From positions 1 through 20,902 of the IMG/VR virus record IMGVR_UViG_3300028840_000253: a stretch of 20,902 bases of DNA; one strand, 5' to 3'. The stretch is from a virus. Of this stretch, positions 1 to 20,902 are shown one piece after another. How positions within the stretch are numbered: position 1 is the stretch's first letter; each line of letters opens with the position of its first letter. Position numbers and translations under genes: made by a program. A model generated the notes under the pieces. It was not told the DNA's origin. It did no database searches and was given only the letters and a program-made list of their open reading frames with translations.

Positions 1-1
1 G

Positions 2-163
2 GGCACCAAGTGGAAAGAGAAACCCGAAAAGAATATTTACTCACACGTGCACGAGGCACTGCAGTATGGTGCCATGGAGTTTGTTGAAGGCAAGATCTTC
101 AGGAAGAACGTAGCACGGAAACAACTACACACAACACCGGCCGACTCGACAGCCGGGTATTAA
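2..163 (+). CDS. Terminase large subunit, C-terminal end (partial)
   Basis: The window opens inside a gene whose last 53 codons are readable and end at TAA 161-163. The tail contains the stretch NIYSHVHEALQYGAM near its start. This resembles the end of the nuclease domain of phage large terminases, where an N-x-x-S-H-x-x-(D/E)-A-L-Q-Y pattern is common. The enzyme would be the ATP-driven packaging motor and headful or site-specific nuclease acting at the portal. Its position directly before the portal gene, 9 bases away, is the usual order. The ATPase domain lies outside the window, so the assignment rests on a short C-terminal motif and on context. Confidence 0.75.
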   Translation, partial: GTKWKEKPEKNIYSHVHEALQYGAMEFVEGKIFRKNVARKQLHTTPADSTAGY

Positions 164-172
164 GGATCTAAT

Positions 173-2242: not shown

Positions 2243-2477
2243 AAAGACACAAGCACTACTCGACGTTATCCGTAGGAATCCAGACAACCATTTCTACCTC
2301 ACATTAAAAGAGTTCGTGGAAACACGGATATATGAGATACAGGAACAGTTAGTGAAGGAAAAGGATATGGACGAGGTCAAACGATTACAGGGAAAGGCCG
2401 ATGAGTTACAGACCATACTCAAAGGTCTTACCCGAAAGCCTGTCGTCAATACCTATGACGGTGGGTTTGGTCAATAG
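2235..2477 (+). CDS. Small conserved-type phage protein, TTG start, overlaps portal
   Basis: An 80-residue charged, probably all-helical protein (K/E/D/Q-rich in the middle) ending in an Asn-Thr-Tyr-Asp-Gly-Gly-Phe tail. The start is TTG at 2235, supported by a strong AGGGAGG at 2223-2229 only 5 bases upstream. There is no in-frame ATG near the front; the first Met is about 43 codons in. The gene starts 8 bases before the portal stop, so it is probably translated by coupling to the portal. I do not recognise a family. Small helical proteins between portal and scaffold are common in podovirus genomes, and a minor virion or assembly role is only an inference. Confidence 0.75.
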   Translation: MAKKTQALLDVIRRNPDNHFYLTLKEFVETRIYEIQEQLVKEKDMDEVKRLQGKADELQTILKGLTRKPVVNTYDGGFGQ

Positions 2478-2554
2478 ACACAGGGCCTCAGTAGAGACAC
2501 CCACAATAACTTTTAACCGGGACACCAGCTTAGGCTGACCCCAAAGGAGGCTAT

Positions 2555-3511: not shown

Positions 3512-3543
3512 ACTCCTGAATAAAACTAAGGAGATTTTTTATT

Positions 3544-4602
3544 ATGAGTACAATGACTTACGGTGACATTTCCCCTCGTACAGCTGCTTTCGTAGTTCGT
3601 GACCTTCTGAAACGTGGTATGCCTTGGTTGGTATTCGAGAAGTTTGGTCAGGCCAAACCTCTGCCTTCTAACAGCACCAAAAGCATTCAGTTCCGTCGGT
3701 ACTACCTGGACAGCTCTTGGACATCTACATTCGGATCTGACTTCAACCCTCACGAATATTTCAAGGGTGACAACTTCAATCCGACCAACAAGACCCTGAC
3801 CGAAGGTGTAACACCTGATGCTACATCTCTGGAAAGCTCTGACTACGATGCAACTCTCGTACAGTACGGTGACCGTGTTGTGATTTCTGACGTGATCATG
3901 GACACACACGAAGACCCGATCCTGAGAGAGGCCGTGGACATTCTTGGTGAGCAGGCTGCTATCCTCATCGAGAAGACTCGTTTCAACGTACTGAAGGCTG
4001 GAACCAACGTCTTCATGACAAACAACGACACCGTCCGTACCAACATCGACACCGTCATGGATCTTCTGACACAGAGAAAAGTCACTCGATTCCTGAAACG
4101 TCAGCTTGGTAAAGCCATCACATCTATGGTTAAATCTACTCCGTCTTACGGAACAGAAGCTATTGCCCCGGCATTCATAGCTATCTGTCACCCGGACTTG
4201 GAGCCTGACCTCCGTGCCATCACTGGTTTCGTACCGGTCGAGAAATACGGAAGCATGACACCTTTCGAAGGTGAAATGGGTAAAATAGAAGACGTTCGTT
4301 ACCTGGCTACAACTATTGCCGAACCTTGGTTGGGTGGTGGTGCCAATGGTACAGCTATCTTGGAAACAAGTTCTGCTGCCGACGTTTACCCGATTATATA
4401 CCTTGCCCGTGATGCCTATGGTATCGTGGCTTTCAAGGGTGCCAATGCCATGACCCCCATGGTCGTGAACCCCAAAGCTTCTGACTCTGACCCCTTGGCT
4501 CAGAGAGGACACGTTGGTTGGAAAGGCTACAGTGCCACAATCATCCTGAACGACTTCTGGATGTGCCGTGTTGAATGTGCCGTTTCTGATCTGACTGCCT
4601 AA
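3544..4602 (+). CDS. Major capsid protein, N4-gp56-like family
   Basis: A 352-residue protein with the look of the N4-gp56 family of HK97-fold capsid proteins. Near the N-terminus it has the PLPSNSTKSIQFRRY pattern (roughly residues 39-53). Later come ICHPDLEPDLR (about 217-227) and YPIIYLARDAYG (from Tyr282), all typical blocks of this family. Length is within the family range. Start ATG 3544 is preceded by AAGGAG and then a run of six T, a U-rich spacer often seen before very highly translated capsid genes. Codon use is biased to C-ending and frequent codons (GAC, AAC, ACC) more than in its neighbours, consistent with high expression. A strong terminator follows directly. The assignment is from recognised motifs, without a database search. 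Confidence 0.9.
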   Translation: MSTMTYGDISPRTAAFVVRDLLKRGMPWLVFEKFGQAKPLPSNSTKSIQFRRYYLDSSWTSTFGSDFNPHEYFKGDNFNPTNKTLTEGVTPDATSLESSDYDATLVQYGDRVVISDVIMDTHEDPILREAVDILGEQAAILIEKTRFNVLKAGTNVFMTNNDTVRTNIDTVMDLLTQRKVTRFLKRQLGKAITSMVKSTPSYGTEAIAPAFIAICHPDLEPDLRAITGFVPVEKYGSMTPFEGEMGKIEDVRYLATTIAEPWLGGGANGTAILETSSAADVYPIIYLARDAYGIVAFKGANAMTPMVVNPKASDSDPLAQRGHVGWKGYSATIILNDFWMCRVECAVSDLTA

Positions 4603-4623
4603 TCAGTAGACTGCTAATAACTG

Positions 4624-4650
4624 GGAGGGGCTAACCATGCCCCTCCTTTT
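4624..4650 (+). terminator. Rho-independent terminator after capsid gene
   Basis: GGAGGGGC (4624-4631) pairs perfectly with GCCCCTCC (4639-4646) across a 7-base loop. The hairpin is followed by TTTT (4647-4650). It sits 21 bases after the capsid stop and before the ribosome site of the next gene. It would terminate part of the transcription and so give capsid mRNA in excess over tail genes. Confidence 0.85.
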
Positions 4651-4683
4651 CCTTAACTATCATTCTGGAAGGAGATTGATACC

Positions 4684-5232
4684 ATGCCTAATTATAATGC
4701 AATGAAGCACGAAGAACTTTACAAGTTGATCGACAAGTACGACCTGGAGAAAGCCGACTACATGACAAAGAAGGAAGACGGCAAGGATTCCCTGAACGTG
4801 AAAAAGCTATCCAACATCCTGAAGCTGATTGACATCCAGGCTGGTCACGTCGATAAAGCCCAAGTCATAGACGAGAATGGGAACGTGTCTGACCACAAAC
4901 CCACGAAGAAGTTTGCTAAAGGCTTCAGTGGTATGATGGCAAAGATCACGTTTTACAACAGTGAAGAAAACGATCTACCCTACGTCCAGCTTGCCCTGAA
5001 CGGTACGGCTCTGATCATTCCACGAGAGAAAGAAGTGTGGATACCAAGAGAATTTATCGATGGTGTTCTGGTAAATGCAGTGATAACCAAAATGAAAATG
5101 GATGTAGACCGGGATGGCAAGATCCGGTACATTCCCAAACAGGTGCCTCGTATCAGCTACACCGTTGCCGACATCAAACACATCGACGTAGTTCGAAAAG
5201 AATACGACGAAGAAAAAGCTAATAAGAAATAA
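4684..5232 (+). CDS. Small structural-type protein downstream of capsid
   Basis: A 182-residue protein. The N-terminal third is charged and helical; the C-terminal two thirds contain a probable beta-rich core. The stretch VQLALNGTALIIPREKEVWIP (positions 4984-5046) followed by E/D-x-x-x-x-VL-x-x-AV resembles a block I associate with small proteins found right after capsid genes in podoviruses with N4-gp56-type capsids (N-G-x-x-x-x-I-P-R-x-x-x-V-x-V-P). Its job there is not established, with head decoration or head completion the likely options. Start ATG 4684 has GGAAGGAG upstream, and the C-terminus is Lys/Glu-rich. Placement right after the capsid terminator supports a head or head-tail structural role, but this is inference. 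Confidence 0.65.
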   Translation: MPNYNAMKHEELYKLIDKYDLEKADYMTKKEDGKDSLNVKKLSNILKLIDIQAGHVDKAQVIDENGNVSDHKPTKKFAKGFSGMMAKITFYNSEENDLPYVQLALNGTALIIPREKEVWIPREFIDGVLVNAVITKMKMDVDRDGKIRYIPKQVPRISYTVADIKHIDVVRKEYDEEKANKK

Positions 5233-5247
5233 TAAAGGAGACTCACA

Positions 5248-5913
5248 GTGGCATTCACAGCAAACGATTACATAACGGAAGCTGCTGAATTGTACGGTGA
5301 CAGTGAATTGGTATCCGGGGATTATGTCCGGGTACCAATATTAACATGGGTCAAGTATCTCAACAGTGCTATTCGAGCTTTGATCCTTGTCCGGCCAGAT
5401 GCCGGAGCAGTCACAGAAAGTGTGCAACTCACAGCAGGAGTGAAACAAACATTGGCAGCTGGAGCAATCAGACTGCTGGATATATCCAGGAACATGGGAG
5501 TTGATGGACTAACTGCTGGCAAGATTATAACCCCTGCTGATCGGAAGCACATAGACTATGCCAACCTCCTGTGGCCTGCAGCCACGGGTGACACAGTGGT
5601 AGAGAACTTTTCTTATGACAACAATGTACCACGTATCTTCTATGTGACCCCACCGGTACATAACTCAACAGCAGTGTACGTTGAAATGTCCACGTCACAA
5701 TTACCCACGGCAGTAACGGGTACCGGATCTGATCCAGGTATCCTTGACATATTTTTTGAACCAGTTGTACAGTTCATGTTATTCAAAGCCTACTCTGCAG
5801 ATGACGAAGGTGTTGAGATGCAGAAGGCTATGCAATATTATAACAACTTCTTCCAGCTACTTGGTATAGAACTTAAGAACTCTACTCAGGCAGGCCCGGA
5901 ACAAAAGGAGTAA
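5248..5913 (+). CDS. Head-tail adaptor protein (DUF6682-like)
   Basis: A 221-residue protein starting at GTG 5248, with AAAGGAG at 5234-5240. The pattern W-x-x-YLN-x-A-x-RA-x-x-x-x-RPDA (about residues 33-51), then G-x-x-Q-x-L near 65, LLDISRNMG (about 76-84), and PRIFYVTPP (about 130-138), is the series of blocks I recall for the phage adaptor family DUF6682. These proteins attach below the portal and connect it to the tail, the place of the T7 gp11 / P22 gp4 class. A mostly helical C-terminus (about 165-215) fits. The family name is from memory; the blocks themselves are plain in the sequence. It is followed 3 bases later by a second adaptor/tail candidate. Confidence 0.75.
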   Translation: MAFTANDYITEAAELYGDSELVSGDYVRVPILTWVKYLNSAIRALILVRPDAGAVTESVQLTAGVKQTLAAGAIRLLDISRNMGVDGLTAGKIITPADRKHIDYANLLWPAATGDTVVENFSYDNNVPRIFYVTPPVHNSTAVYVEMSTSQLPTAVTGTGSDPGILDIFFEPVVQFMLFKAYSADDEGVEMQKAMQYYNNFFQLLGIELKNSTQAGPEQKE

Positions 5914-5916
5914 CCT

Positions 5917-6639
5917 ATGGCTACAGCAACAACAGGATTCGTTCTATTGGACGACTTTCTACCAGAGATACTTCAGTACGTTAATGGTGCCCCAACTATT
6001 ATGGTTAGGACTCACGTCAGGAATGCTATCATACATTTCTGTGAGAGAACCTTGCTGCTCAAACGGCAACCGTCTACGTTTTATCTGGACGAGGAGGAAC
6101 ACACATACGAACTGAAATATAACAATGATCGTTACCGGGCTATTGCAATACAAGAGTGCCAGGAAGGATCAGGAGACAACGGCCGTGTCATCTCAGAGAC
6201 AACAGAGCACTGGCTGGATCACACAATTAAAAACTGGAGAGAAGACACAGGCAGTCAACCGTCCCGGTGCTTCTTAACAGATGAGACAAACAAGATAAGG
6301 TTTTACCCGGAACCCACAGCAGATGGAGACGATGAGATCTACATGAACACAGCTGTCACGTACAAACGTAGTATGACAGAGTGTGATGAATTTATCTGGG
6401 AGAGGTGGGAAGAAGTAATACAAGCTGGAGCACTTGAGTCCCTACTCAGAATACCTAAGGCATCTTGGGTTGATGGTAAACTGGCCGACGAGTTTGGCCG
6501 GAAGTGGAAACGTGGAATCAGGAATGCTCGTAAGTCTGTACTGGGTGGAACATCACAGAAACCTACTGGTGCTGTACCACAGAACTTTGAAGTGGTTGGC
6601 TCTAATCATACAGATGGGAGATCAAACTCATGGGTTTAA
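5917..6639 (+). CDS. Tail/adaptor-type structural protein
   Basis: A 240-residue protein. The N-terminal pattern F-L-P-E-I-L-x-Y-V-x-G-x-P, then R-x-A-I-I-x-FCE-R-T (about residues 34-43), followed by D-E-E-E-H-x-Y-x-L (about 58-66), resembles a widespread phage family usually annotated only as structural and usually encoded beside DUF6682-type adaptors. The middle is beta-rich (IRFYPEPTADGDDEIY, about 127-142), then a helical region with W-x-x-x-I-x-x-GAL. A role as a second adaptor or tail-tube component is the best inference from position. Start ATG 5917 lies 3 bases after the previous stop with AAAGGAG overlapping it. It shares 10 bases at its end with the next gene. Confidence 0.65.
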   Translation: MATATTGFVLLDDFLPEILQYVNGAPTIMVRTHVRNAIIHFCERTLLLKRQPSTFYLDEEEHTYELKYNNDRYRAIAIQECQEGSGDNGRVISETTEHWLDHTIKNWREDTGSQPSRCFLTDETNKIRFYPEPTADGDDEIYMNTAVTYKRSMTECDEFIWERWEEVIQAGALESLLRIPKASWVDGKLADEFGRKWKRGIRNARKSVLGGTSQKPTGAVPQNFEVVGSNHTDGRSNSWV

Positions 6640-7526
6640 CATTTTCTAACAACTCCGAAGGTACCCTGGCTAATATCTTAACAGCCGGAGCAACAACACT
6701 CACCTTGACCCCAGGTCACGGGAGCAGGTTCCCTGAAGTGGACTTTGCTGCTGACGGTGATTATTTCTTTGCCACACTGGTGGCTCAAGATGGTACACGA
6801 GAAGTTATCAAAGTCAAAGAGCACACGACAGCTGTTGACATCGATCAGTTCAGCATAATCGAACGGGCTGCTGATGCTATACAATCTGGTGTTGCCACGG
6901 CTTATGCCTTTGCTGCAGCTGACAAGGTTCAGCTACGGCTACCGGCCGTTGCCATCCTGTCTCAGGACGGAACAAAGTCTGACACGTTCCAGATTGATAC
7001 AGACAACACCGGCATCACACTGAAACACGACACACAGGAATTACTGGTACGGAACCTGGCTGACAGTGCTTATGCTAATCTGAAAGCCAACGGTCTAACC
7101 TTGGCCGATGCTTTGGTTATATCCGGCACAGTTACTGGTGTGACCAGCCTAACCATGGCCGGTGCCCTATCTGGTGTCACGACCCTGGCAATGGGTGGTG
7201 CACTAAGTGGTGTTACGACTTTGGCAATGGGTGGTGCTTTAACTGGAGCAACTGATATAACGGCCTCTGGAACTGTGACTGCTGCTGACGTTACAACAAC
7301 AGACGATATCGTTTGTGGTGACGATCTGACAGTCAATGGAAAGCTTACAGCTACAGCTGAGGCTGCTGCTATATCAATCGACAATGAAGCATCTATTGCT
7401 AAAATCAAAGCACGAGATCATCAGACGGCTTCTACCCCGGAAGTGCCCAACATGGTATACGGCACCGGGTCACCCCCGGCTGCTGGTACAGTACCTCAAG
7501 GAACGATCTGGCTGAAGTACGTATAA
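6630..7526 (+). CDS. Fiber-like virion protein with 12-residue repeats
   Basis: A 298-residue protein with very high Ala, Thr, Gly and Val. Its first 110 residues look like a folded beta-rich virion-attachment module (LTLTPGHGSRFP and similar). Residues about 170-217 are four tandem 12-residue repeats (GVTSLTMAGALS, then two near-identical GVTTLAMGGALS/T units, then a diverged copy), typical of a triple-stranded beta-helix fiber shaft. After a short linker the C-terminus ends GTVPQGTIWLKYV, a pattern often seen at the end of small phage appendage proteins. It is shorter than classic tail fibers, so it may be a short spike, a decoration or a fiber adaptor. ATG 6630 overlaps the previous gene by 10 bases, with GGGAG at 6615-6619. 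Confidence 0.65.
   Translation: MGLTFSNNSEGTLANILTAGATTLTLTPGHGSRFPEVDFAADGDYFFATLVAQDGTREVIKVKEHTTAVDIDQFSIIERAADAIQSGVATAYAFAAADKVQLRLPAVAILSQDGTKSDTFQIDTDNTGITLKHDTQELLVRNLADSAYANLKANGLTLADALVISGTVTGVTSLTMAGALSGVTTLAMGGALSGVTTLAMGGALTGATDITASGTVTAADVTTTDDIVCGDDLTVNGKLTATAEAAAISIDNEASIAKIKARDHQTASTPEVPNMVYGTGSPPAAGTVPQGTIWLKYV
7137..7280 (+). repeat. Four tandem 36-bp (12-residue) repeats in fiber gene
   Basis: Units begin at 7137, 7173, 7209 and 7245. The second and third differ at only a few, mostly third-codon, positions and encode nearly the same 12 residues. The first and fourth are more diverged. The period matches a beta-helical shaft, and the copy number could change by recombination. 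Confidence 0.85.
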
Positions 7527-8389: not shown

Positions 8390-10693
8390 ATGGCAAAAAT
8401 ACAGATTAATACTTTTAAAGGGATCATGCCTAAGGTTGCCAACGATAAACTCCCAGAGGGAATGGCTCAGGTGGCTAATGATCTTAAGACGGCCTCCGGT
8501 GAGTTGTTCCCCTTCAAGAGAGCAACCACTGATCTGGCCCTACCACTCAGTTCGTATGAGTCTTTCTTCGAATACATCGATGGGACTAATAGTGACTGGG
8601 CATACTATGACGGACTGGTATTTCATGCACGATCCCCTGTTGCCGATGACACTTTCAACAGGACATACTTTTTAGGTGAATCTGGATTACCAGCCCAAGG
8701 AACATTAACCGTTGACACAGTACCGACAGCTACGGATACGATGACCATCAACACCACGGTCTACACGTTTGTGGCCGTTGGTGCTTTGACTAACCCCGGT
8801 GATATTGAGATAGGCCTCAATGCCATTGAGGCACAAGAGAATATAACGGCAGCTATCGAAGGAACCGACGGAGTGAACACTGCTCACACCACAGTCAACA
8901 TAGCTGCCTGGTCGAGTGATGCTGCTGTGCTTGAATATTATATACACGGCACGGCCGGTAACTCCATCGTGACAACAGAGACCTTCACGGCAGGAACGAA
9001 TGTCTTTGATGCCGGTACCCTTGGTACCACACAGGCAGGTCAGAATGACGATGAGTATCGTGCCTTTGCCAATGACATAGATTCCACCCCGTGGGATTTT
9101 CAACAAGACTATTACCTACCAGGTGCCGATGCTGGATCAGCCCCAACTCTACCAGCCGGTGCCGGTGCTACCTACATAGCCTACTTCTATTCTTATGTAT
9201 CAAGGTATGGTGAAGAAGGCCCCGGATCTGGGATAGCTGATATATCAACTTACACCGTTGGCTCAAGACAACAGGTCAACGACATCACGTATCCTAATGC
9301 TGAAGATGAGCACTTGATCACAAAGGTTGGAACTAACCGACCTAAGGTCAGAGTATACCGGACAGCCGACGATGGTGCCGGTGGTGCTGCCTTCCTGAAA
9401 GTCTGTGATGCATATTGGTTCGATCAAACTGAAACTTACGTTGCTGGAGAATATGTATTCTACGGTGGTGGTGGAACATATGATTTATACGAGTGCACCG
9501 TAGGTGGTACAGGAACCTGGGCTGGTGGAACTCACACCTTCGTACAGGGTGAGCAGGTAGCCGTAGCTGATCTTGGTACTACTGCTGAAGCATACCTATA
9601 CCGAAGGTGCCCGGATGGTTTGGACAATCTAAGGTCACACCCGAACGGATTCTTTGTTGCTTCTAAAGGAAACACCCTATACTTCAGTGAACCATTTGCT
9701 CCGTGGGCCTGGCCGGAGGATTATGAAATACCTCTGGACACACAGATCGTAGGTCTTGGAGTTTATGGAACCACAGTCGTGGTTGCCACTGATGGAAATA
9801 CGTACACCTTTACCGGGCCACACCCCAACTCATTGTACAAGCAGAGACTGGGTATGCACCCGTGTCTGTCTCAGAGAGCTGTTGTAGAGACTGACCTTGG
9901 TGTTATGTTCCCGGCCAAAGCAGGGTTCTGGCTGGTTGCTGCTGACTCAGCCCCTAAGAATGTCACGGCTGAAATGTTTAAGCCGGAGGACTGGGAGGAC
10001 TATGAGCTGGAGGCAATGCACGGTGCTTGGTACAATCAGGCTTACTATGGATTCTATAAGACAGCTGACTATCAAGGTAACATAGTCATTGACTTTCTAA
10101 ACGGATCAATAACTGGTGGTGGTGACTATCACTATGCTACGAATGTGTCATACGAGGATGGTACGTTTCGAACTATCTTTGAATCTAATCTTACAACCCC
10201 CAGTGTGCTGAACATATGTAAGTGGGATAACGATCCAACGTCTTACCGGAACTACACCTTCAAGACAGCCCGGTACGTTCTTGAGAAGCCTGCTAACTTT
10301 AAGGTGGCTCAACTCATACTGGACACTGACTGGTATGCTGATGTCTTAACAGCAGCTGGTGGTGACTTGGAAACTTTAAATTCTACGACGTGGGCCTCTA
10401 ACCCGGCTACTAACTGGGGTGACATGATGGAAGGCCCGATCAATGATGCTTGTGCAAACTGCCAGGATGTAAATGGTGATCTTCTGTTTAACACTACCAA
10501 CCTTGGCCTACAAGATTATGTTGAGTTCAAAGTCTACGTTGACGGAGATCTGAAGTGGTCAAGGCAAGTTGATAACAGTAAGATGTTCAAGCTACCCCGT
10601 GGGTTCAAACACAAGAAGTGGGAGTTCGAGGTGGTTGGCATGGTGCCGTGTAAACGGATAACCATAGCAACATCAACAGAGGAGATCGTATAA
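8390..10693 (+). CDS. Tail nozzle-like protein (T7 gp12 / tubular protein B type)
   Basis: A 767-residue protein. I chose ATG 8390 over an upstream in-frame TTG at 8369 because 8390 lies just after the previous stop and the family N-terminus (FKGIMPKVANDKLPEGMAQV, with SGELFPF soon after) begins there. The core block LYFSEPFAPWAWPEDYEIP (from about residue 430) and VGLGVYGTTVVVATDGNTY (about 458-476) is the typical beta-propeller region of podovirus tail nozzle proteins, which form the hexameric tip of the short tail. An extra domain of about 115 residues (about 103-217) is inserted near the N-terminus. The end is beta-rich and Lys-rich. The large size relative to minimal nozzles is mostly explained by this insertion. 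Family placement is from motifs, not from a search. Confidence 0.8.
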   Translation: MAKIQINTFKGIMPKVANDKLPEGMAQVANDLKTASGELFPFKRATTDLALPLSSYESFFEYIDGTNSDWAYYDGLVFHARSPVADDTFNRTYFLGESGLPAQGTLTVDTVPTATDTMTINTTVYTFVAVGALTNPGDIEIGLNAIEAQENITAAIEGTDGVNTAHTTVNIAAWSSDAAVLEYYIHGTAGNSIVTTETFTAGTNVFDAGTLGTTQAGQNDDEYRAFANDIDSTPWDFQQDYYLPGADAGSAPTLPAGAGATYIAYFYSYVSRYGEEGPGSGIADISTYTVGSRQQVNDITYPNAEDEHLITKVGTNRPKVRVYRTADDGAGGAAFLKVCDAYWFDQTETYVAGEYVFYGGGGTYDLYECTVGGTGTWAGGTHTFVQGEQVAVADLGTTAEAYLYRRCPDGLDNLRSHPNGFFVASKGNTLYFSEPFAPWAWPEDYEIPLDTQIVGLGVYGTTVVVATDGNTYTFTGPHPNSLYKQRLGMHPCLSQRAVVETDLGVMFPAKAGFWLVAADSAPKNVTAEMFKPEDWEDYELEAMHGAWYNQAYYGFYKTADYQGNIVIDFLNGSITGGGDYHYATNVSYEDGTFRTIFESNLTTPSVLNICKWDNDPTSYRNYTFKTARYVLEKPANFKVAQLILDTDWYADVLTAAGGDLETLNSTTWASNPATNWGDMMEGPINDACANCQDVNGDLLFNTTNLGLQDYVEFKVYVDGDLKWSRQVDNSKMFKLPRGFKHKKWEFEVVGMVPCKRITIATSTEEIV

Positions 10694-10873: not shown

Positions 10874-12010
10874 ATGAGCATTTGGGATACAGTTATAGAG
10901 CAGGGTGTGAAAGCTGCTGGTGCTTATCTTACTGCATCTGGTGACAGTGGTGGTGACAGCAAGACAACACACATCACACCTGTTCAGCCATCGACCGAAG
11001 GCACGGCAACAATATCTGACTTTGATATTTTATACAATGCCAATGCCATCGAAGGTATGTACAACTTGACTAATCAACTGAACGAGTGGTCTACACAGGA
11101 CAGAGACTTTTTCCAGAGTGTGTATCAGCCGTATCAGGAATCAATAGTGGGCACCAACACGGCCCTGCTACCTACCATAGAGAGGGTGGCCGGTCGAACC
11201 TTGGAAGCAAATGCCAGGGACATGGTGTCTAACGAAAACTTAAAGCAGATGTTCCGTGGATCTATTGGTGGTGTTAACGTACACACCGAAGGTGCCATGG
11301 CTAATCTCAGGAATGAGTTGGCTAATGTTCCAACTACTGAGGAACGTGTGGGCCAGGCCCTCACATCTGTTGAGAAACAATTTAGTGAAGCAGGCAAGCA
11401 GCTTACTGCTGACTTTGCCTCTCGTGGACAGGCCGTTACACAGGCCAGTAAGAGGGATCTTGCTTTTCAGAAAGCTACAGCTAAAGCCGGTGCTGCCGGT
11501 GCTGCAGCCGAAGCTGCCAGAGGTGAAAGACTCCGGGCTGCTCAAGCTGGAGTGGGTGCTGAGCTTCAGAAGACTGAGTCCGATGTACGTACAAGACAGC
11601 AAGAGACAGCCTCTCTCGTTGCCCTGCAGAATGCACAACAGGCTGGTCTGGCACTACCTCAGGTAGGTGGTGTGCAGCAGACAACTGGTTTCGAAGGTGC
11701 TGGTGTAACAGCCGGGCTGACACAGGCCGGTGCTGAGCAATCATTTGGAACAAGGCAGAAACAAGATGCCGTCACCCAGGTACAGCAGGGTGTCAAGGCC
11801 CCGGCCCTAACAGCCGGAGCAACTGGTGAAGCCCCCGTTGAAGGTGGTGCTGGTGTACAGGGAACTGCTGCTCGTGATGAATCTGGTGCTCTGATAACTG
11901 CAGGCTCTGCTGGTGCAACTATGAATGCAGGCCGTCCGTTAATCCAATCTTCAACCGGTGCCATGGCCGGTGTTATCAAAAGCATGTTTGGTGGCACAAG
12001 CCCTCGATAG
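10874..12010 (+). CDS. Ala/Gln-rich internal virion-type protein; upstream part of a possible -1 frameshift fusion
   Basis: A 378-residue protein, low in aromatics and rich in Ala, Gln, Gly, Thr and Glu. Residues 1-60 include a short Gly/Ser stretch. About 65-270 is largely helical and coiled-coil-like, with an Ala-rich stretch at about 198-222, and the last 100 residues are a low-complexity Gly/Ala/Gln/Thr segment. This composition and its place after the nozzle suit an internal (ejected) virion protein, but I cannot name a family. ATG 10874 has AAGGAG directly after the small gene. The gene ends Ser-Pro-Arg-stop at 12008-12010. At that point the -1 frame is open and continues for 383 codons with protein-like composition, and a strong stem-loop begins one base after the stop. 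The stop may therefore be bypassed in a fraction of translation. Confidence 0.8.
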   Translation: MSIWDTVIEQGVKAAGAYLTASGDSGGDSKTTHITPVQPSTEGTATISDFDILYNANAIEGMYNLTNQLNEWSTQDRDFFQSVYQPYQESIVGTNTALLPTIERVAGRTLEANARDMVSNENLKQMFRGSIGGVNVHTEGAMANLRNELANVPTTEERVGQALTSVEKQFSEAGKQLTADFASRGQAVTQASKRDLAFQKATAKAGAAGAAAEAARGERLRAAQAGVGAELQKTESDVRTRQQETASLVALQNAQQAGLALPQVGGVQQTTGFEGAGVTAGLTQAGAEQSFGTRQKQDAVTQVQQGVKAPALTAGATGEAPVEGGAGVQGTAARDESGALITAGSAGATMNAGRPLIQSSTGAMAGVIKSMFGGTSPR

Positions 12011-12056
12011 CCGGAACCCAGACAACAACTGGGAGTCCGTTTCAAGAGGGTTCCGG
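11999..12056 (+). promoter_or_regulatory. Putative programmed -1 frameshift site with stimulatory stem-loop
   Basis: The zero frame reads AGC CCT CGA TAG (11999-12010). A proline tRNA on CCT (12002-12004) can re-pair with CCC (12001-12003) after a one-base backward slip, while the slow codon CGA and then the stop are next. The inverted repeat CCGGAACCC (12011-12019) / GGGTTCCGG (12048-12056) is a perfect 9-bp stem starting right after the stop. The loop sequence ACTGG (12028-12032) can also pair with CCAGT (12085-12089), which would make a pseudoknot. A slip here joins two open frames. The slip site is not a classic X-XXY-YYZ heptamer and the spacer is short (3 bases after CGA), so this remains a prediction. 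Confidence 0.5.
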
Positions 12057-12333
12057 TGGATTTCAGCAAGGTAGTGGATTCACTCCAGTAGAAGGAGGTA
12101 TACTTGATCCTGCTGAAATTGAGAGGAGACGGATAGAACAAGAACAACAGGCATACCTAAAATTCCAACAGGGTATTGCTGATGCTTTAAGAAAGAAAGG
12201 CTACCGTAGTGACAATAACTTTGGCCTGGACGGTGGTGGTGGATACGAGACAGGGGCTAACACACAGGGCCTCGACTCTGTTGACCCGGCCACGGCACAT
12301 GCTGTTGCTACAGCCATAGCCAAGGGTGCACCT
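12004..12333 (+). other. Start-less open frame linking the Ala/Gln-rich gene to the Hint gene (likely coding)
   Basis: In the frame of the Hint gene, the sequence has no stop from 11881 and no ATG, GTG or TTG until ATG 12334. From about 12001 its translation looks like real protein: a Thr/Gly/Ser/Gln-rich stretch, then a charged helix (ILDPAEIERRRIEQEQQAYL at 12100-12159, continuing to about 12200), then a Gly patch and an Ala-rich stretch just before 12334. Before about 11998 the same frame is full of Cys and Trp and looks non-coding, so the change of coding frame falls close to the stop at 12008. The other two frames have stops at once or within about 30 codons. The best reading is the middle of a -1 frameshift product; a sequencing or assembly indel would look the same. 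Confidence 0.65.
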
Positions 12334-13155
12334 ATGGCAAGTATACTTGGCATACCAGGATTATCTACAGGCTTACAAGCCATATCCGGCCTTGTGGCCG
12401 GTACAGTTGCACACGGAAATGTCATGGGTGGTTTAGCTCAAGCCCTTGGACTCTCTCCTGCTGTGGCTGACATGATAGGTATGGGTATGCAGAAGGGTTC
12501 CCTTACGGTACCCGGAGTCTATGGTGGTGGTTTAGCTGGCACAGACTTTGGTGGTTTTTCAGACACCTCCGGCTATGGTGGACACGGTGGTTACGGTGGT
12601 GGTGATGCTGGTATGGGTGCTGATGGATCTGCTGGTGTTGGTGGTGGTGGAGTTGGTGCTGGTCAGGGTGGAGGCCCGGCCGGTGGTAACTGCTGCTTCG
12701 TTGCTGGTACCAAGATTGCTATGGAGCACAACGGTGTCATGAACATTGAAGATGTCCGACCAGGACATATCGTGCAATCGTTTAATCTCAGATCGAAACT
12801 GTTTAACACCAGTATCGTACGAGATGTTAAGACGGTAATGAGAGCAGACTACTATGAAGTTGTGTTCAGCTCAGGTAACACACTGAAGGTTACGGATGAC
12901 CATCCCATGTTCACAACCAATGGGTGGGCTTCTATTAAACCAGAAGTGACAGGTAAGAACCCACTGTATGATCAGCTCAACGAGATAACCACGTTGACTG
13001 AGAACAGCAGTGTCATGAATATGAACGGCCATTATGAGCAGATCAAATCGATCACTCGAATATCTGGCCCAATCAAAACATACACACTTGGTCAGGTGAC
13101 ACCGTCAAGAAACTTCTTTGCTAACGGATACCTTGCCAGTAACTATGCTTGTTAA
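12334..13155 (+). CDS. Gly-rich protein with C-terminal Hint (hedgehog/intein) domain
   Basis: Counted from ATG 12334 this is 273 residues. It has a Gly/Ala-rich hydrophobic first part, a very Gly-rich linker (about 60-119), then a Hint domain from Cys121 to the end. Block A is CFVAGTKI with IEDVRPG; block B is SGNTLKVTDDHPMF (Thr187, His190); the C-terminal block is RNFFANGYLASN (Asn270), followed only by Tyr-Ala-Cys and the stop. Cys121, T-x-x-H and the terminal Asn are the usual autoprocessing residues. The penultimate residue is Ser rather than His, and the residue after Asn is Tyr rather than Cys/Ser/Thr, so ordinary intein splicing is unlikely. N-terminal cleavage or transfer at Cys121, as in bacterial intein-like or hedgehog domains, is more likely. 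ATG 12334 has only a weak AAGGG site (12322-12326), and the frame extends upstream, so the real product is probably a frameshift fusion of about 760 residues. Confidence 0.8.
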   Translation: MASILGIPGLSTGLQAISGLVAGTVAHGNVMGGLAQALGLSPAVADMIGMGMQKGSLTVPGVYGGGLAGTDFGGFSDTSGYGGHGGYGGGDAGMGADGSAGVGGGGVGAGQGGGPAGGNCCFVAGTKIAMEHNGVMNIEDVRPGHIVQSFNLRSKLFNTSIVRDVKTVMRADYYEVVFSSGNTLKVTDDHPMFTTNGWASIKPEVTGKNPLYDQLNEITTLTENSSVMNMNGHYEQIKSITRISGPIKTYTLGQVTPSRNFFANGYLASNYAC

Positions 13156-13164
13156 GGAGACCAT

Positions 13165-14292
13165 ATGGCCTTAAATAAAAGAGGTGTCGGTGCAGCTCTA
13201 ACTTCAATCGGACAAGGAATGGAAGACTTCCGAAAAGAAGAAGCAGAGAAACGTCGGCACGAGGAGGCTACTGCACGAGAAGAACGTCGTCTTAAAATGC
13301 AGGAGGAAGATGCTAAGCAACGACGTGAGATGAATAATCTCAAGATTCAAATGCAGAAAGCCCAATGGAACAACGAACAACTGATGAAGGCAGCTGCCAC
13401 ATCTGAGTATAACCCGGCAGCTATGGGTAAAGCCCTGACTCAGTATATGCCAGACGGACACGTCTGGGATTATAATGATATCAAATCCGTGAAGAACGAG
13501 GATGGATCATACAAAGAGATCGTCTTTGATATGGGTGCATACAAGTCTAAGGGTGCTGGTGTCATGGGTACTGGTGGTGTTCCTGAGAAGCAGGCATACC
13601 CTGGTGGCCTTGGTGTGAAGAAATTCGTGACGGATGATGAGAGCACGGCCCAGGAAAAGTTTGTCCGGTTTATTACAGCTACGACAAACCCGAATGCTAT
13701 CATGGCAATGCAGTTGCAGGAAATGACAGCAGAGAAGAACCTGGAGAATGCTGAGAAGATTCATAAGAAACGACTGGAGACTGACCCGGACTATGCTTTG
13801 AAGTACGGACAGCAGAAAGATCTGGATGCCTTGAAGGTAGCTCAGGCCAGAGAGAATGTCGAGAAGACTAAGGCTGAGACTGCTAAGCTCAAACGTGAAC
13901 CTAAGGGTACGACTACCCCGGCCCAGGCCCCGGTGTCTACATTCAAATCATTCTCTGGCAAAATGAAAAAGCAAACGGCCAAGGACGTGGACAAGGCTAA
14001 ACAGTTTGCTGCTTCGTTAAATAAGTCTGGTAACTATCAGACTACTCTTGATGCAGACGATGCTGCAAGGATCATGGATATTAAGAACGATCCTAAAGCT
14101 CAGAAGCTTATCAATAGTTACCGTTCGAAGATTAAAGCTGGTGAGATGACGATTGAGGAGTTTAGTGAGAAGTTCGATGGAACGGATCTACCTCAGGAGT
14201 TCATTAACCAAATGTATACACGAGCTGAGTCCATGTCTGTCAAAGCAGACGAGGGCAGCTTCTGGGACTTTTTACCTTTCGTAGGAAAATAG
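13165..14292 (+). CDS. Coiled-coil internal virion-type protein
   Basis: A 375-residue Lys/Glu/Ala-rich protein. After a short Gly/Ala start (GVGAALTSIGQGM, residues 7-19) it has a long charged coiled coil (about 20-75, dominated by E, R, K, Q), a globular Gly/Tyr-containing middle (about 85-165), a second helical region with repeated Lys/Glu (about 180-255), a Thr/Pro/Ala linker near 255, and a C-terminal segment ending FWDFLPFVGK. It lies between the Hint gene and the giant gene. In podoviruses, proteins encoded here are usually internal core or ejection proteins, so that role is inferred. No enzymatic motif is visible. ATG 13165 has AAGGAGA overlapping the preceding TAA, pointing to coupling. 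Confidence 0.7.
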   Translation: MALNKRGVGAALTSIGQGMEDFRKEEAEKRRHEEATAREERRLKMQEEDAKQRREMNNLKIQMQKAQWNNEQLMKAAATSEYNPAAMGKALTQYMPDGHVWDYNDIKSVKNEDGSYKEIVFDMGAYKSKGAGVMGTGGVPEKQAYPGGLGVKKFVTDDESTAQEKFVRFITATTNPNAIMAMQLQEMTAEKNLENAEKIHKKRLETDPDYALKYGQQKDLDALKVAQARENVEKTKAETAKLKREPKGTTTPAQAPVSTFKSFSGKMKKQTAKDVDKAKQFAASLNKSGNYQTTLDADDAARIMDIKNDPKAQKLINSYRSKIKAGEMTIEEFSEKFDGTDLPQEFINQMYTRAESMSVKADEGSFWDFLPFVGK

Positions 14293-14302
14293 GAGAAAAC
14301 AA

Positions 14303-17300
14303 ATGGCATCATTTTTAGACGATTATAATGAGCTTACCGGAGAGGGACAGGAGGGAGTGGTCGATGCCCCCGATACCGACACACCGTCGGCTACTGATTC
14401 TTCAGAGGAAGCATTACGGAATGCCCGGAAACGGGCCATGGGTTCTATGCCCAAACCGTCGAGTGACATAACCCCTGTCTTGCAGTCTACGGACAGGGTT
14501 AAGAATAGACAGCAGGTACTGGACATGTTGGATCTGGATGAGGAAGATATTCCAGATCCTCACGGTGCCATAGCTCAGGCCGGGGAGTGGATCGAAGGTG
14601 CTAACCGTGCCGTCATCTTAGGCTATGCCTCTGGTAATCTGACCATGGAGAAAGGTCGTATTGGTTACAAGATGAAACGTGGTGAGGCATCCCCGGATGA
14701 CATAGCCAGGTTGAATGAGATCGATAAGACAGTTTCCCAGTACAATAAATTTTTAAAGGACAGCCCCAGTGTTGCCAAGAACTTTGGTAACCTTGCCCCG
14801 TGGATTCAAAACTCTATGGTGCAGGGTGGTAAAGGTTACTTGATTGGTGGTATAGCTGGTGGATCTTTGGCTCTTGCTGCTGGACAGCTTGGCCCTCAAG
14901 CTGCTCTACCTGAAGAAGCCGTGACCGTCCCGGCCATGACTGCTCTTGGTGGAAAGCTGGCTTCTCGATTCCTTGCTACTAAAGATATAGCTGAGGTTGA
15001 ATCTGGACTGGCCTATCTCGAAATGACAGAGATGGGTATGGACAAAGATAAGGCTGGAGTTGTGGGTGACATGATTGGTACCACAGTTGGTGCCTCTGAA
15101 ATTGTTGGCTTGCACTTCTTGACGAAGTTGGTTCCATCCAAAGTAAAGGGTGAGGCCCTGAAGGGTATCGTTGGCAGAGCAACTCGTAGAGTTGTGACTG
15201 AGAATGCTGTAACCAGGAATGCTGCTCGAACCACAGGTGCTATGGCTGGTGAGGCTACCGTTGAATCTGTTCAAGAGTTGACAAACAACATCGGTCAGAC
15301 TGCTGCCTCGATGTACAAGTCAGAAGAAGACGAGCAAGATCTATCCCCGAAGTCTGTGAAAGAATTAGGCCAACGTATATCTGCAGGACTGTGGGATACC
15401 TGGTGGGCTACATTCCAGGGTATGGGTGTTGCCGGTGCCCCAGGCTTTGCAGCTGGAACGATCAGAGATTCAGTAGGTAACAACAAGGCCAAGGATCTTG
15501 GTGAAGGTAATGCCATCGTTGAGCCTGACAGTGATGAGAATCTATCCGGGGTTGGTGAGGCACGTAAGCCTCTCGATGAGATCCGGGATGAGAATAAAAA
15601 GAAACCCACGGTCGATGACCTGATGGGATTAAATATGTCAGACACAGATGTCACGGAAGATGGTGCAGCCCTGTCTGATAGTTTAACTGTTACACCTGAG
15701 CAGGCTAAGGTTCAGAAAGAGACTGGAGACTCTGTCAATAAGTTCCTGTCTAATATGAGACTGGATGCCAAGATGAAGGGTGACAGGATCGATGTACAGA
15801 ATAACATCCGTAAGATGGACACGATCAGTGGCCTATATGAGGAAGCTGTTAAGGCTGAAGATACAGAGGAGGCTTTGGTTCTGGCTGAGCAGTATAGTCA
15901 GACGGTGTCTCAGACAAACGACAGACTCAACTCACTGATGGGTGCCAAGGGTCAGAAGCTGGCTGGTGAAGATTCAGCTGTTGATCCGAATGAACTGAAC
16001 AACGTCGATATGTTCAAAGAGGAGAAGACACGACAGGCACATAACATGGTGGCCCAAGCTACCAAGGCAGCTAAGACCAAGGATGCCCTGGAAGCAATGG
16101 ATCTGGCTGACACACTGCAAGATCCTAAGAACCTGCAAGCCACGTTGGTTCAGCAGGAACGTAAGATGAAGGCTACCAAACCTGAGGTTGCCAAGGTCAA
16201 CCGTAAGATCACTGACATGCTGGAGATTAAAAAGTACACCTCCAGGGAGACCTACCTATCCAAACACGTGAAGATGGATAAGCTGGTCGATATCAAAAGT
16301 CAGCTCGAACACCAGCTGATGGATCAGAAAGAGGATGATCGATCCTCAACGACAGACCAGGTGATCACACAATCCACATTGGATCTTGTTAATTCAACGA
16401 TTGCTGAAAAGCAGGAGTTTGATGAAACTGTTGATGAGCAGAAACGTGTTGATGCTTTGAGACGTGAGCAACAGGCCAAGGCCACAAGACAACCGGCCCC
16501 GGCCGACACACGGAAGAAAGCAGAGACTGAGACTCAGAAACGTCAGGAGGCCCTCCGTGCAGACAAAGAGAAAAGAGAGAAGATGCAGGCTACCCCTGCT
16601 AAGCTGGCTGCTGAAGCTAAGAGAAAAGCTGACCGTCCTGCTCCTACTCAGAAAGCTCCGAAAGCTATCATCGGAGATAAAAAAGTGTCAGAGTTTGATA
16701 GACGACGAGCTGAACTTAAGAAGCAGAAAGCCACAGTTGCCAAGGAAGACAAGAAACTGGCAACCTATAAACCCAAACCAAAGGCAGTCCCTGAAGCAAT
16801 TAAACGTCAGCAGAGAGAAGTTGAAGCTGCTGAAAAACCTGCTCGAAGCAAGAAGGGTCAGCCGGTAAAGACCAAGGATTTGAAGGAAGACAAGACATCT
16901 GAGTACACAATCTTGACCTCCGACAATCCTGCCAGTACCGAAGTGACACCAGCTATAAATCGTAAGAACCGTATTGCCCTAAAGAAGAAGCTCGACCAGA
17001 TGGATGTTGACTACGAGATGGGCACGTCTATGTTTGAAGGTGTGGCAGAGGTACCCTTTGTAATCCGTGGCCTGACCCAGGCCCAGGCAAAAGAGTTATC
17101 CAATGAATTGGGTCAGACATCTTTCATCCATGCCAAGGGTGACAAGGTTGCATTAGTTGAAGGTGGTAAAGCCAACGTGGTTAAGAGGAAAGAGATCCGT
17201 CTTGCTCCCTCAGCAACAGATTACTTTACCAAGATCGGTAAGGAGAAATTCACCATACCGTTCTATACCGATAAGTCCACAGATCTGGACGTAGAGGAGG

Positions 17301-20300
17301 CCCTTGCCCCTCAGGTAACCGTTAAGCAAAAGAACCTGGCTAAACAGCAGTTCCGTTCAGCCGGTATAGAGTATAAAGGAAAGGTCTATGAAGGAAAAAG
17401 CCACTTAAGTATCCTGATGGATAACCCTAAGATCCAGGATGCCCTGATCAAACTTGAGCCAAACCAGATCATACACCAAATAAAACGTGGGTTTGTATCA
17501 AAGAATGGGGAGTTCATGGATCGGTTTGATGCATCACAAGCACTGGGTATGAAGCCCTCTGAATCACTGATAAGTGAGGACTTTTTAGCACAGATAGCTG
17601 AAGGTGCTCCCGGCCGTAAGGCCCCGGCCGTTGAGAAGAAAGCCTACGTTCGTAAGGCTATCATTGAAGACACCCCCATGAACAAGACCACCCAGAAATT
17701 AATTCAGAAGTCTGGTGTTAAGGTTTCGTTGGTGGATGGTAACGAGATCAATGATCTGAAACTGCCTCAGGGTAGCAAGGATCTTATTAGAGTTGCCAAT
17801 GGTGTGTACCGTTCAGGTACCAATGAGATCATGATGAACGTGGACAACCTGGCTGGACTAAGCCCCAGGCAGATCCAGAGTTCCATAGCTCACGAGGCCC
17901 TGCACTCGAACATCTATAAGGGTCTGAGAGAAGTTAACCCGGATAAGTTCCGTCGATCCATGAGGACGTTGTCCAACTGGTGGGCAGACACAAGCTTGAA
18001 TGTCGATCCTATTATATTGAGTAGGTCAGACAGACGTGTCCAGGGATTCTGGGGAGTTATGAACGATGCTGTACAGTCTATGGATGCAGCTACGACAGCC
18101 ATGGAGAATGGTCAAGCCTATGCCAAGCAGAATCTGGATAGGGCTATGGCTAAGATGGAGGAGGCTCTGACGTATCCCTTCACATCACCCACGGTTGCTA
18201 AGTTCCTGAACAACGTGAAGCTCGATCAGGCTTACATGGACAAGGGTATCAAGTCTATGTGGGATTGGTTTGTGGATCACATGCTGAAGTTCCTTGATCT
18301 TAAAGTCAAAACCGGTAGCTCACTTGAGAGCTTACGGTCAATAGCCAACAGCACATTAGAGCTGAAGGCTGATACAGCAGATGTCCGGTTTGCAAAAGAG
18401 GACACCAGCTTTGACTTTGGTGAGAACGTCAACAGGTTTACGGTAGAGAAATGGGTAGGTGACCTTGATGCTGAAGCTACCAATGCTGTACCGTCAGTTG
18501 TTGTTGGAACCACAGAGGAGGCTGAGGCACTGGTAGGCTATAAGATTGGTGACAACGTGCCGTCTGTGTGGATAGATGAGCACACAACAACGGAAACAGT
18601 TTATGGTAAGGGTAAGGCAGGCAAGAAGGTTAAGACTGTCGTCCCGGCTAAGGTTATATTCATAGCTGAGAACATTAATTCCCAAGATCATTTACTTTCC
18701 AAGTGGATGCACGAACACGTAGGGCACCAGGGATTACGTAACACCTTTCCTAATAATGCTCTGCTAACGAGATTCCTTGACCAGGCATTCAGCCTGTTTC
18801 AATCTAAGGATATTGACACACTGAACGAAATCATTGAGCTGTATGATATTGGTAAGCTTGATGAGAAGGGCAACCGTAAGCTGACGAAGGTAGACAAACG
18901 ACTGGCAGCTGAGGAGGTTATTGCCCGGAGAGCTGAGAAACTTAAGAGGGAAACTAAGACTGGGTTGATAGCCAAGTTTAAGAAGTTCGTTAAACGGTGG
19001 TTGCCTAAGTCGTTCCTTGCCAAGAAGATGGCACCCTTTAAGATGTCAGACACGGATGTTATGAACGTCCTTGAGATGTCTAAGGCCAACGTCATGACGA
19101 GTGACACCCAGGCCGGTACCTTCTTACAGCAGGCCCTCGATGCACGTGCTCCTAAGTTCCCGTTCAAGGGATGGAAGACACTGCCTGACTTTCAGTTCAG
19201 TGATAATACGTACATGAAATGGATAGAGGAAGTGGAGAAGGAAGCTCCGAACGTACGGAAGTGGTATGAGAAACACCAAGATACCCTTCGTGAATACTTT
19301 GGTAAGGATGCTGACCTCTTTAATATCCTGCTATCTGTAACCTCTCCCCAGGCCGACGTTAACACGAACGTCATCTTTGCTGCTCAGACCTATGCTTACC
19401 TGATGGGTCAGGCTGAGAAGCCGGGTGCCTTGTTTGCCAACAAGCTGAAGAAACAGATCGATGAGCACTGGACAACACCAGAGTCTATGTTCAAGAACCT
19501 TGAGTCCATTAACTTCAAGGTGACTGAGTTCGTACGTGGACTGAACGGTGACCCGGATGCTACCGTCGGTGACCTCTGGATGTTTAGAGCTTTCTTTGGT
19601 GATGCTGCTGTGTATGACAAGGAAGCTGAGTCATATTCCAAACCCATGGTTGTAGCCATGAGGCAGAAGATCCATGATCTTGCTGCCAAGATGTCAGCCA
19701 AGACAGGTGAGACGTACACACCTCGTGAGATACAGGCTGCTATCTGGATTAACATCAATGCCAAGTCTAATGGTATTCGTTTCGATGAGGTGGCTGATTA
19801 CCAGTCAGGTTTTAATAAACCCTCTGCTCGATTCGATGGTAAGTCTCCGTTGGAATGGCTGAAGTCAATCATACCTAATCTATCTGATGGTCAACTGTCA
19901 GAGAAGTTAGGAATCACTGAAGTACCCATGGCCCCGATTAGCCCGTTGGCTAAGCAAAGGCTGATTCAGGTACGGAACGAGTTGAAAGCCCAGGGAAGAA
20001 AGATAAATAAGTTTATCGTGGATGAAGACGGTACGATTCACACCTCCTTTAAGGACGTGGACGAAGGAACCCTCAACATCATCGATGCTATCGAACAGGG
20101 TGGACGACGAGTTGTTGTGCCGGAGGATGCTGCCGACTGGTACCGTGAGACATTTGGTTTCAGGGAAGTCTCTACCGATAAGGGACAGACTACCATGAAG
20201 CTATCCGACGATGCTGTGAACGTGTATACGAACCCGAAGGGGAAGATCACGGCTACTCAAATCCGTCAGAATCTTGGTGGGTTTAGTGGCACATACACCA

Positions 20301-20902
20301 GAGTTGCACGGTTTAGTAAAGAGGCCAAGAGTAACCTGGACAAGATAGCCAAGCTATCCCAGGAGGACAAGAACAAGTTGGATGCAGAACATATGAAGTC
20401 AGGTACTATCAATGACAAGAGAACTGTTATTGGTAAGATCCACGAGTGGAGAGAACAAGCTGGATTGAACGTGGATCGATTCATAGCTGCACTGGAGCAA
20501 GAGTTCCTTGACACCTTTGGTGGCCGTAAGACACGTGCCCTTTTCTTTGGCACACGTAAGCAAGGCTACAAAGTGAACACGTCAGACACCATGCTCCTGA
20601 GAAAAGCAATGAACCTTTACATTGACTCTGGTGCCCAGATGGACAAGGTCGATGGTTATATCAGAGAGTTGTCGGCCAAGGGTCTTAAGAACCTGACCGG
20701 CTCAGAGTTCGAGCAGCTGAAGATCATGCAGAGAATGAAGAACATGACTGAGGAAGAAATGTCGTGGGCCGATAGCAACATCCGGCCGTACTATCAGGAC
20801 TTCCTGGAGTTTGCAAAAGAACATCAGATCATCGATAGTGAAGTTGCCAACTATGTCAAGAGGTCTTGGAAGTTGCCGAAGGAACTTGAAGGTTCAACTG
20901 TT
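14303..20902 (+). CDS. Giant phage polyvalent / ejected protein with two zincin motifs (partial, continues past window)
   Basis: ATG 14303 (AGGAGA site at 14291-14296) opens a frame with no stop to the window end: 2200 codons and continuing. Visible parts in order: an acidic N-terminus; a Gly/Ala-rich hydrophobic region (about residues 174-390, with GYLIGGIAGGSLALAAG and GEATVESVQE) like the membrane-active first part of phage ejected proteins; a long Lys/Glu coil (about 640-860); a small module with VPFVIRGLTQ...GQTSFI (about 917-942); a module with IKRGFVSKNGEFMDR (about 1060-1074); a first metallopeptidase motif HEALH (1197-1201); a second, HEHVGHQGLR (1470-1479), with AAEEVIA (1535-1541) as likely third ligand; an all-helical module from WYEKH (1654) to QAAIW (about 1815); and an acetyltransferase-like WYRETFGF (1946). 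Such chains are known as phage polyvalent proteins, delivered with the genome. Individual functions are inferred from motifs. Confidence 0.85.
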   Translation, partial: MASFLDDYNELTGEGQEGVVDAPDTDTPSATDSSEEALRNARKRAMGSMPKPSSDITPVLQSTDRVKNRQQVLDMLDLDEEDIPDPHGAIAQAGEWIEGANRAVILGYASGNLTMEKGRIGYKMKRGEASPDDIARLNEIDKTVSQYNKFLKDSPSVAKNFGNLAPWIQNSMVQGGKGYLIGGIAGGSLALAAGQLGPQAALPEEAVTVPAMTALGGKLASRFLATKDIAEVESGLAYLEMTEMGMDKDKAGVVGDMIGTTVGASEIVGLHFLTKLVPSKVKGEALKGIVGRATRRVVTENAVTRNAARTTGAMAGEATVESVQELTNNIGQTAASMYKSEEDEQDLSPKSVKELGQRISAGLWDTWWATFQGMGVAGAPGFAAGTIRDSVGNNKAKDLGEGNAIVEPDSDENLSGVGEARKPLDEIRDENKKKPTVDDLMGLNMSDTDVTEDGAALSDSLTVTPEQAKVQKETGDSVNKFLSNMRLDAKMKGDRIDVQNNIRKMDTISGLYEEAVKAEDTEEALVLAEQYSQTVSQTNDRLNSLMGAKGQKLAGEDSAVDPNELNNVDMFKEEKTRQAHNMVAQATKAAKTKDALEAMDLADTLQDPKNLQATLVQQERKMKATKPEVAKVNRKITDMLEIKKYTSRETYLSKHVKMDKLVDIKSQLEHQLMDQKEDDRSSTTDQVITQSTLDLVNSTIAEKQEFDETVDEQKRVDALRREQQAKATRQPAPADTRKKAETETQKRQEALRADKEKREKMQATPAKLAAEAKRKADRPAPTQKAPKAIIGDKKVSEFDRRRAELKKQKATVAKEDKKLATYKPKPKAVPEAIKRQQREVEAAEKPARSKKGQPVKTKDLKEDKTSEYTILTSDNPASTEVTPAINRKNRIALKKKLDQMDVDYEMGTSMFEGVAEVPFVIRGLTQAQAKELSNELGQTSFIHAKGDKVALVEGGKANVVKRKEIRLAPSATDYFTKIGKEKFTIPFYTDKSTDLDVEEALAPQVTVKQKNLAKQQFRSAGIEYKGKVYEGKSHLSILMDNPKIQDALIKLEPNQIIHQIKRGFVSKNGEFMDRFDASQALGMKPSESLISEDFLAQIAEGAPGRKAPAVEKKAYVRKAIIEDTPMNKTTQKLIQKSGVKVSLVDGNEINDLKLPQGSKDLIRVANGVYRSGTNEIMMNVDNLAGLSPRQIQSSIAHEALHSNIYKGLREVNPDKFRRSMRTLSNWWADTSLNVDPIILSRSDRRVQGFWGVMNDAVQSMDAATTAMENGQAYAKQNLDRAMAKMEEALTYPFTSPTVAKFLNNVKLDQAYMDKGIKSMWDWFVDHMLKFLDLKVKTGSSLESLRSIANSTLELKADTADVRFAKEDTSFDFGENVNRFTVEKWVGDLDAEATNAVPSVVVGTTEEAEALVGYKIGDNVPSVWIDEHTTTETVYGKGKAGKKVKTVVPAKVIFIAENINSQDHLLSKWMHEHVGHQGLRNTFPNNALLTRFLDQAFSLFQSKDIDTLNEIIELYDIGKLDEKGNRKLTKVDKRLAAEEVIARRAEKLKRETKTGLIAKFKKFVKRWLPKSFLAKKMAPFKMSDTDVMNVLEMSKANVMTSDTQAGTFLQQALDARAPKFPFKGWKTLPDFQFSDNTYMKWIEEVEKEAPNVRKWYEKHQDTLREYFGKDADLFNILLSVTSPQADVNTNVIFAAQTYAYLMGQAEKPGALFANKLKKQIDEHWTTPESMFKNLESINFKVTEFVRGLNGDPDATVGDLWMFRAFFGDAAVYDKEAESYSKPMVVAMRQKIHDLAAKMSAKTGETYTPREIQAAIWININAKSNGIRFDEVADYQSGFNKPSARFDGKSPLEWLKSIIPNLSDGQLSEKLGITEVPMAPISPLAKQRLIQVRNELKAQGRKINKFIVDEDGTIHTSFKDVDEGTLNIIDAIEQGGRRVVVPEDAADWYRETFGFREVSTDKGQTTMKLSDDAVNVYTNPKGKITATQIRQNLGGFSGTYTRVARFSKEAKSNLDKIAKLSQEDKNKLDAEHMKSGTINDKRTVIGKIHEWREQAGLNVDRFIAALEQEFLDTFGGRKTRALFFGTRKQGYKVNTSDTMLLRKAMNLYIDSGAQMDKVDGYIRELSAKGLKNLTGSEFEQLKIMQRMKNMTEEEMSWADSNIRPYYQDFLEFAKEHQIIDSEVANYVKRSWKLPKELEGSTV

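Follow-up and report, generated by a model that had tools for sequence, protein, structure and literature searches.

A candidate −1 frameshift that would append a Hint-like domain to a probable ejection protein of a podovirus-like phage

Genomic context of ORF1

The sequence analysed here, referred to as the window, is a complete virus record of 20,902 bases that holds a fragment of a podovirus-like phage genome. Its genes specify, in order, a portal protein, a scaffold-like protein, a capsid protein, two SU10-type adaptor proteins, a phrog_511-like protein, ORF1, the extension that is the subject of this work, a 375-aa protein and a giant protein (14303–20902) whose gene runs off the window end. 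The phrog_511-like protein, of 768–774 aa, lies upstream of ORF1 and was recognized by its match to phrog_511 (internal virion protein). All of the genes other than the disputed extension start with ATG or GTG, and nearly all of them are preceded by a clear ribosome site, which for ORF1 is AAGGAG. TAG is used as a stop only by ORF1 and by the gene at 13165 (14290–14292), with the other complete genes that were checked ending in TAA. The same virus is also represented by a second IMG/VR contig, L014, whose positions 1–6267 align to positions 749–7015 of the window with 99.9 % identity (six mismatches and no gaps) and which stops short of the junction at the end of ORF1; as it derives from metagenome 3300017971, the virus is present in a further assembly. 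Within the phrog_511-like protein, positions 9413–9590 encode an insert of ∼55 residues (AYWF...TETYVAGEYVFYGG...) that is nearly identical in the related contig L003 (4064–6373) and absent in the related contigs L002 and L020; judging from these alignments, it appears to be a mosaic module within an otherwise conserved protein.

Homologues of ORF1 with 35–40 % identity were identified in five related contigs (L002, L003, L020, L102 and L104), and in each of these, as in the window, the gene is located between the tail/adaptor genes and a giant ejection-type protein. The giant protein of L003 has a transglycosylase-like match at its start that falls just below the cut-off (weak SLT matches), whilst that of the window has no N-terminal transglycosylase-like match, with only DUF3293 being matched there. 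Pfam and PHROG searches returned no family for ORF1, and an hhalign profile comparison with the gp14-like positional equivalents in two phage records gave no match (0.15 %). The preliminary description of this locus had designated ORF1 an internal virion protein. Its gene position is indeed that of a podovirus ejection protein (gp14-like), but neither sequence nor profile matches agree; because the profile comparison with positional equivalents was negative, we infer from gene order alone that ORF1 most likely encodes an ejection protein. The features of the locus are collected in Table 1.

Table 1. Features at the ORF1 junction and in the downstream extension (positions are those of the window)
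Feature	Position	Strand	Description
ORF1	10874–12010	+	378 aa, TAG stop, 0-frame product; probable ejection (internal virion) protein
C_CCU shift-prone tetramer	12001–12004	+	Codon CCT 12002–12004 preceded by C; sole Z_ZZN in overlap of frames
−1 frame extension	12004–13155	+	383 aa plus stop; coding-like from junction onward; no usual start codon before 12334
6-nt spacer CGATAG	12005–12010	+	Includes ORF1 stop TAG 12008–12010
Stem-loop, candidate stimulator	12011–12056	+	Perfect 9-bp stem, 12011–12019 with 12048–12056
Glycine-rich linker before Hint-like domain	12508–12690	+	From translation
Hint-like (intein-like) domain	12694–13143	+	Cys1 12694–12696, Thr 12892 and His 12901 (VTDDHP), NFFANGYLAS, Asn 13141–13143
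Predicted junction peptide of −1 frameshift product			GGTSPSIAGTQTTTGSPF

Coding sequence past the ORF1 stop

ORF1 ends in GGC ACA AGC CCT CGA TAG, which is followed by CCGGAACCC. The −1 frame is open from 11881, after its last upstream stop at 11878, to a TAA at 13153–13155, and a frame scan for ATG, GTG and TTG found none in it between 11878 and 12334, in keeping with the preliminary description. The reported lengths were likewise confirmed from the translation, including the 760 aa of the product that would result from joining ORF1 to the extension.

With a codon-usage likelihood for which the remaining genes of the window served as the training set, we located the best frame switch at 11995–12007, adjoining the TAG. 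For 126 nt ahead of the junction the −1 frame is already open, yet it is not coding-like there (score −0.61). From 12010 to 12333 it is both open and coding-like, with a score of 0.35 that was reached by none of 3000 shuffles; within this stretch, 12010–12132 was open with an equal or higher score in just 0.27 % of shuffles, and 12133–12333 is strongly coding in the −1 frame. G+C content by codon position is 0.64/0.52/0.36 in 12004–12333, matching the 0.63/0.52/0.41 of ORF1. Together with the frame-specific coding scores, this indicates that coding sequence carries on past the TAG in the −1 frame, as is expected downstream of a −1 frameshift site, and the joined translation reads smoothly over the junction. 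The original observation that protein-like sequence begins at the stop thus holds, whereas the picture of two frames simply meeting at one stop holds for the coding switch but not for the frames themselves, the −1 frame being open well before the TAG. Inside the extension, positions 12092–12099 form a perfect Shine–Dalgarno-like AAGGAGGT; the TTG it could serve (12104) opens a frame of only 10 codons.

Slip site, spacer and stem

In E. coli, with a pseudoknot as stimulator, shift-prone tetramers rank A_AAG >> U_UUC > U_UUU > C_CCU = C_CCC > A_AAA, with frameshifting across the six of 0.26–5.6 % (PMC4066793). The C_CCU at the ORF1 end, fourth of these and not a canonical heptamer, is as such a modest slip site. 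Stimulatory structures generally begin 5–8 nt downstream of the slip site (PMC4066793), and here the tetramer lies inside the overlap of the two frames and is separated from a 9-bp stem by 6 nt. Of the slip site first proposed, the proline codon preceded by C is retained, but we find the slow codon CGA to be less apt as a cause than C_CCU with the spacer CGATAG.

The stem directly after the stop was verified, and is one of only three perfect 9-bp stems with a loop of up to 40 in 20.9 kb. In tests that were made after the stem had already been noticed, a perfect stem of ≥ 7 bp at 4–9 nt followed just one of the shift-prone tetramers that lie in frame in the window's genes (111 in all), namely the C_CCU at the junction; 9-bp stems 5–8 nt after shift-prone tetramers had a background frequency of 0.1 % in ∼1 Mb of related contigs; and when the peptide was held fixed and synonymous codons were drawn at genome frequencies, a 9-bp stem arose at the site in 0.2 % of samples (P = 0.002) and the 50-nt fold energy was at least as low in 1.9 %. 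Over the wider region (80–120 nt) the fold energy is ordinary (z about −1; P = 0.35 for the 80-nt energy), and the only unusual features of the junction are where the stem lies and that its pairing is perfect. The pseudoknot suggested in the preliminary description did not withstand a folding check: the loop could pair downstream, but shuffled sequence pairs equally well 40 % of the time (P = 0.40). No upstream Shine–Dalgarno-type stimulator was found at the junction, nor did an Rfam search give a match. On sequence grounds, the anatomy of the junction matches that of a programmed −1 frameshift better than expected by chance.

Other modes of decoding were considered as well. A tandem heptamer slip on A_AGC_CCU was rejected because the P-site tRNA-Ser would re-pair poorly on AAG, and readthrough of the TAG was rejected because it would leave the frame unchanged, with more stops to come at 12089 and 12134. 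Transcriptional slippage was also set aside, the overlap of frames having no long homopolymer run.

A Hint-like domain in the extension

In the extension, a charged, probably helical stretch is followed by a hydrophobic one rich in Gly and Ala, a glycine-rich linker and, at the C-terminus, a Hint-like domain. The last of these has an N-terminal nucleophile Cys, a TxxH block and a terminal Asn, after which come Tyr-Ala-Cys and the stop. Its profile scores lie near but below the curated cut-offs for PF14890 (27.5 bits; cut-off 35.8), PF14623 (26.8; 27), PF01079 (23.1; 29.7) and TIGR01445 (21.7; 24.5). The domain reported earlier as Hint bears the expected motifs without reaching family level, and because of these scores we refer to it as Hint-like and file it in none of the four families. 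By sequence, the solved structures closest to it are 6y75 and 6tmm, both intein-like domains; an AlphaFold model of this part, made without an alignment, had a pLDDT of 34. As Tyr follows the Asn and Ser stands in the place of the usual penultimate His, splicing is unlikely, and the likeliest activity would be N-terminal cleavage at Cys1. No relatives of the extension were found in the viral contigs or plasmids searched; its matches in phages were limited to distantly related Hint domains of such proteins as helicases and portal proteins, with none for the part that precedes the Hint-like domain.

The extension is specific to one lineage

At the same locus, the ORF1 homologues have lengths of 423 aa (L002), 444 aa (L003), 418 aa (L020), about 435 aa (L102) and about 409 aa (L104). 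All five occupy a single frame; their ends vary and are for the most part rich in glycine, and the counterpart of the 13165 gene begins within about 20 nt after each. Neither the extension nor a Hint domain is present in any of them, and as these homologues reach about 409–444 aa without it, ORF1 alone resembles the usual product. A search with PF14890 found no Hint domain in 33 related records, whilst the same search detected the window's own, and scanning 1 Mb from related phages for the Hint motif was also negative. As such, the 1.15-kb extension is an addition specific to the lineage of the window. The junction, with its stop, tetramer and stem, is present in no relative and is known from a single sequence. 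It had been proposed to look for relatives with both parts in one frame, or else with the same stop and stem; neither arrangement was found, and the five relatives have the ORF1 part alone. An ordinary start codon for the downstream part, which would have spoken against frameshifting, was likewise not encountered in the relatives, because they lack that part altogether.

Weighing of the explanations

With two coding frames in a −1 relation, a slip tetramer, a spacer, a stem and Hint motifs at this locus, we consider it probable that a −1 frameshift appends an optional Hint-like domain to a minority of the ORF1 product. The foremost competing explanation, which we disfavour and judge to be unlikely, is that a one-base indel (an assembly error or a population mutation) at or near the CCC run breaks up what is normally one protein of 760 aa, in which the C-terminal Hint domain is constitutive. 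Such a protein would agree with the single-frame state of the homologues in all five relatives, with the smoothness of the joined sequence, and with L003, in which an in-frame hydrophobic stretch and glycine-rich tail loosely resemble the first part of the extension. Against this, not one frame break was seen among homologous structural genes of related contigs totalling 287 kb, and the 6.3 kb aligned to L014 has no gaps. Artefactual frame breaks are accordingly rare, occurring less than about once per 100 kb (95 % limit). Nor would an indel explain the tetramer and the rare stem at the right spacing.

We regard it as less probable again that the downstream part forms a gene of its own and uses a rare start, whether ATA 12133 (preceded by AGGAG), ATA 12007 (which overlaps the stop) or ATG 12334 (preceded by a weak AAGGG). 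The spacing of these ribosome sites (AGGAG 5 nt before ATA 12133 and AAGGG 8 nt before ATG 12334) favours the idea. ATA, however, is a very poor start codon, and its use would depart from the ATG or GTG, nearly always with a clear ribosome site, of every other gene in the window; moreover, a start at ATG 12334 does not explain the strong coding signal of 12133–12333, and 12010–12132 is coding-like too. As no relative shares the junction, an indel and a rare start codon both keep some share of the probability. It is highly improbable that the extension is an acquired segment, bearing a Hint domain, that is no longer expressed and is decaying: its confinement to this lineage and want of a detectable source would suit such an origin, but the 383 codons are still open, codon usage is normal along their whole length, and the key residues of the Hint domain are retained. 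The programmed −1 frameshift of the preliminary description is supported in part, by the junction anatomy and by the rarity of indel artefacts in comparable contigs; with the junction conserved in no relative, the programming itself stays putative.

Proposed mechanism

In the −1 frameshift that we favour, most ribosomes would end at the TAG (12008), yielding the 378-residue protein, which is near the size found in relatives. The stem starting at 12011 would pause a minority of ribosomes, on which the tRNA-Pro may slip at C_CCU (12001–12004), from CCU back to CCC. Ribosomes that had slipped would continue in the −1 frame, adding 383 residues: a linker, the hydrophobic stretch, the glycine-rich tail and the C-terminal Hint-like domain. 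The latter would most likely cut the chain before Cys1, which might release a core-plus-extension form or leave a reactive thioester. A small share of the probable ejection protein could in this way bear a self-processing extension. It counts against the scheme that, at a low shift rate, many virions would be without any extended copy. Both the slippage, with its frequency, and the Hint cleavage are steps that we infer.

Comparison with known systems

Optional domains appended by frameshifting are already known in phage coat and tail proteins, and are mainly Ig-like; in diverse phages, frameshifting adds C-terminal domains of this type to part of the coat and other proteins, the domains having been gained independently on different proteins (PMC5009743). 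In the T3 major coat protein and in Lactobacillus phage A2, as proposed here, a −1 shift late in a virion-protein gene places an optional C-terminal domain on a minority of the product (PMC5009743), whereas the present case, known from sequence, concerns a Hint-like domain on a probable ejection protein rather than on a coat or tail protein. The tail assembly chaperone gpG/gpGT of lambda similarly involves a −1 shift, close to the 3′ end of a structural-region gene, that gives a long minor product (PMC5009743), but the gene is a different one, the site in the window is a tetramer rather than a heptamer and is not conserved among relatives, and a podovirus-like phage of this type builds no long tail. 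In virion-protein genes of Listeria phages PSA, A118 and A500, too, ribosomes slip on a proline codon immediately ahead of a stop codon or a structure (PMC5009743); the PSA shifts and the A118/A500 tail-gene shifts are +1, unlike the −1 shift on C_CCU envisaged here. With bacterial intein-like (BIL)/Hint domains, the domain in the window shares the Cys1, TxxH and NFFANG-type motifs, and its terminal Asn likewise precedes a residue other than Cys, Ser or Thr; it differs in having Ser for the usual penultimate His and only three residues after the Asn, and in belonging to a phage protein in another frame. Hint domains in phages have been described as inteins, for example in the large terminase of phiCbK (PMC3556154), and we found no case of a frameshift-appended Hint domain in the open-licence literature.

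More tentatively, and with rather less confidence than in the frameshift itself, we suggest that a programmed −1 shift may set a fixed minority of the ejection protein that carries a self-cleaving Hint-like domain, so dosing an autoprocessing or covalently reactive form in the virion. If the suggestion is true, a probable DNA-injection machine would combine two independent kinds of control, one setting the dose during translation and the other acting by autocleavage of the protein, and a single lineage would be able to gain an optional extension over a conserved core protein.
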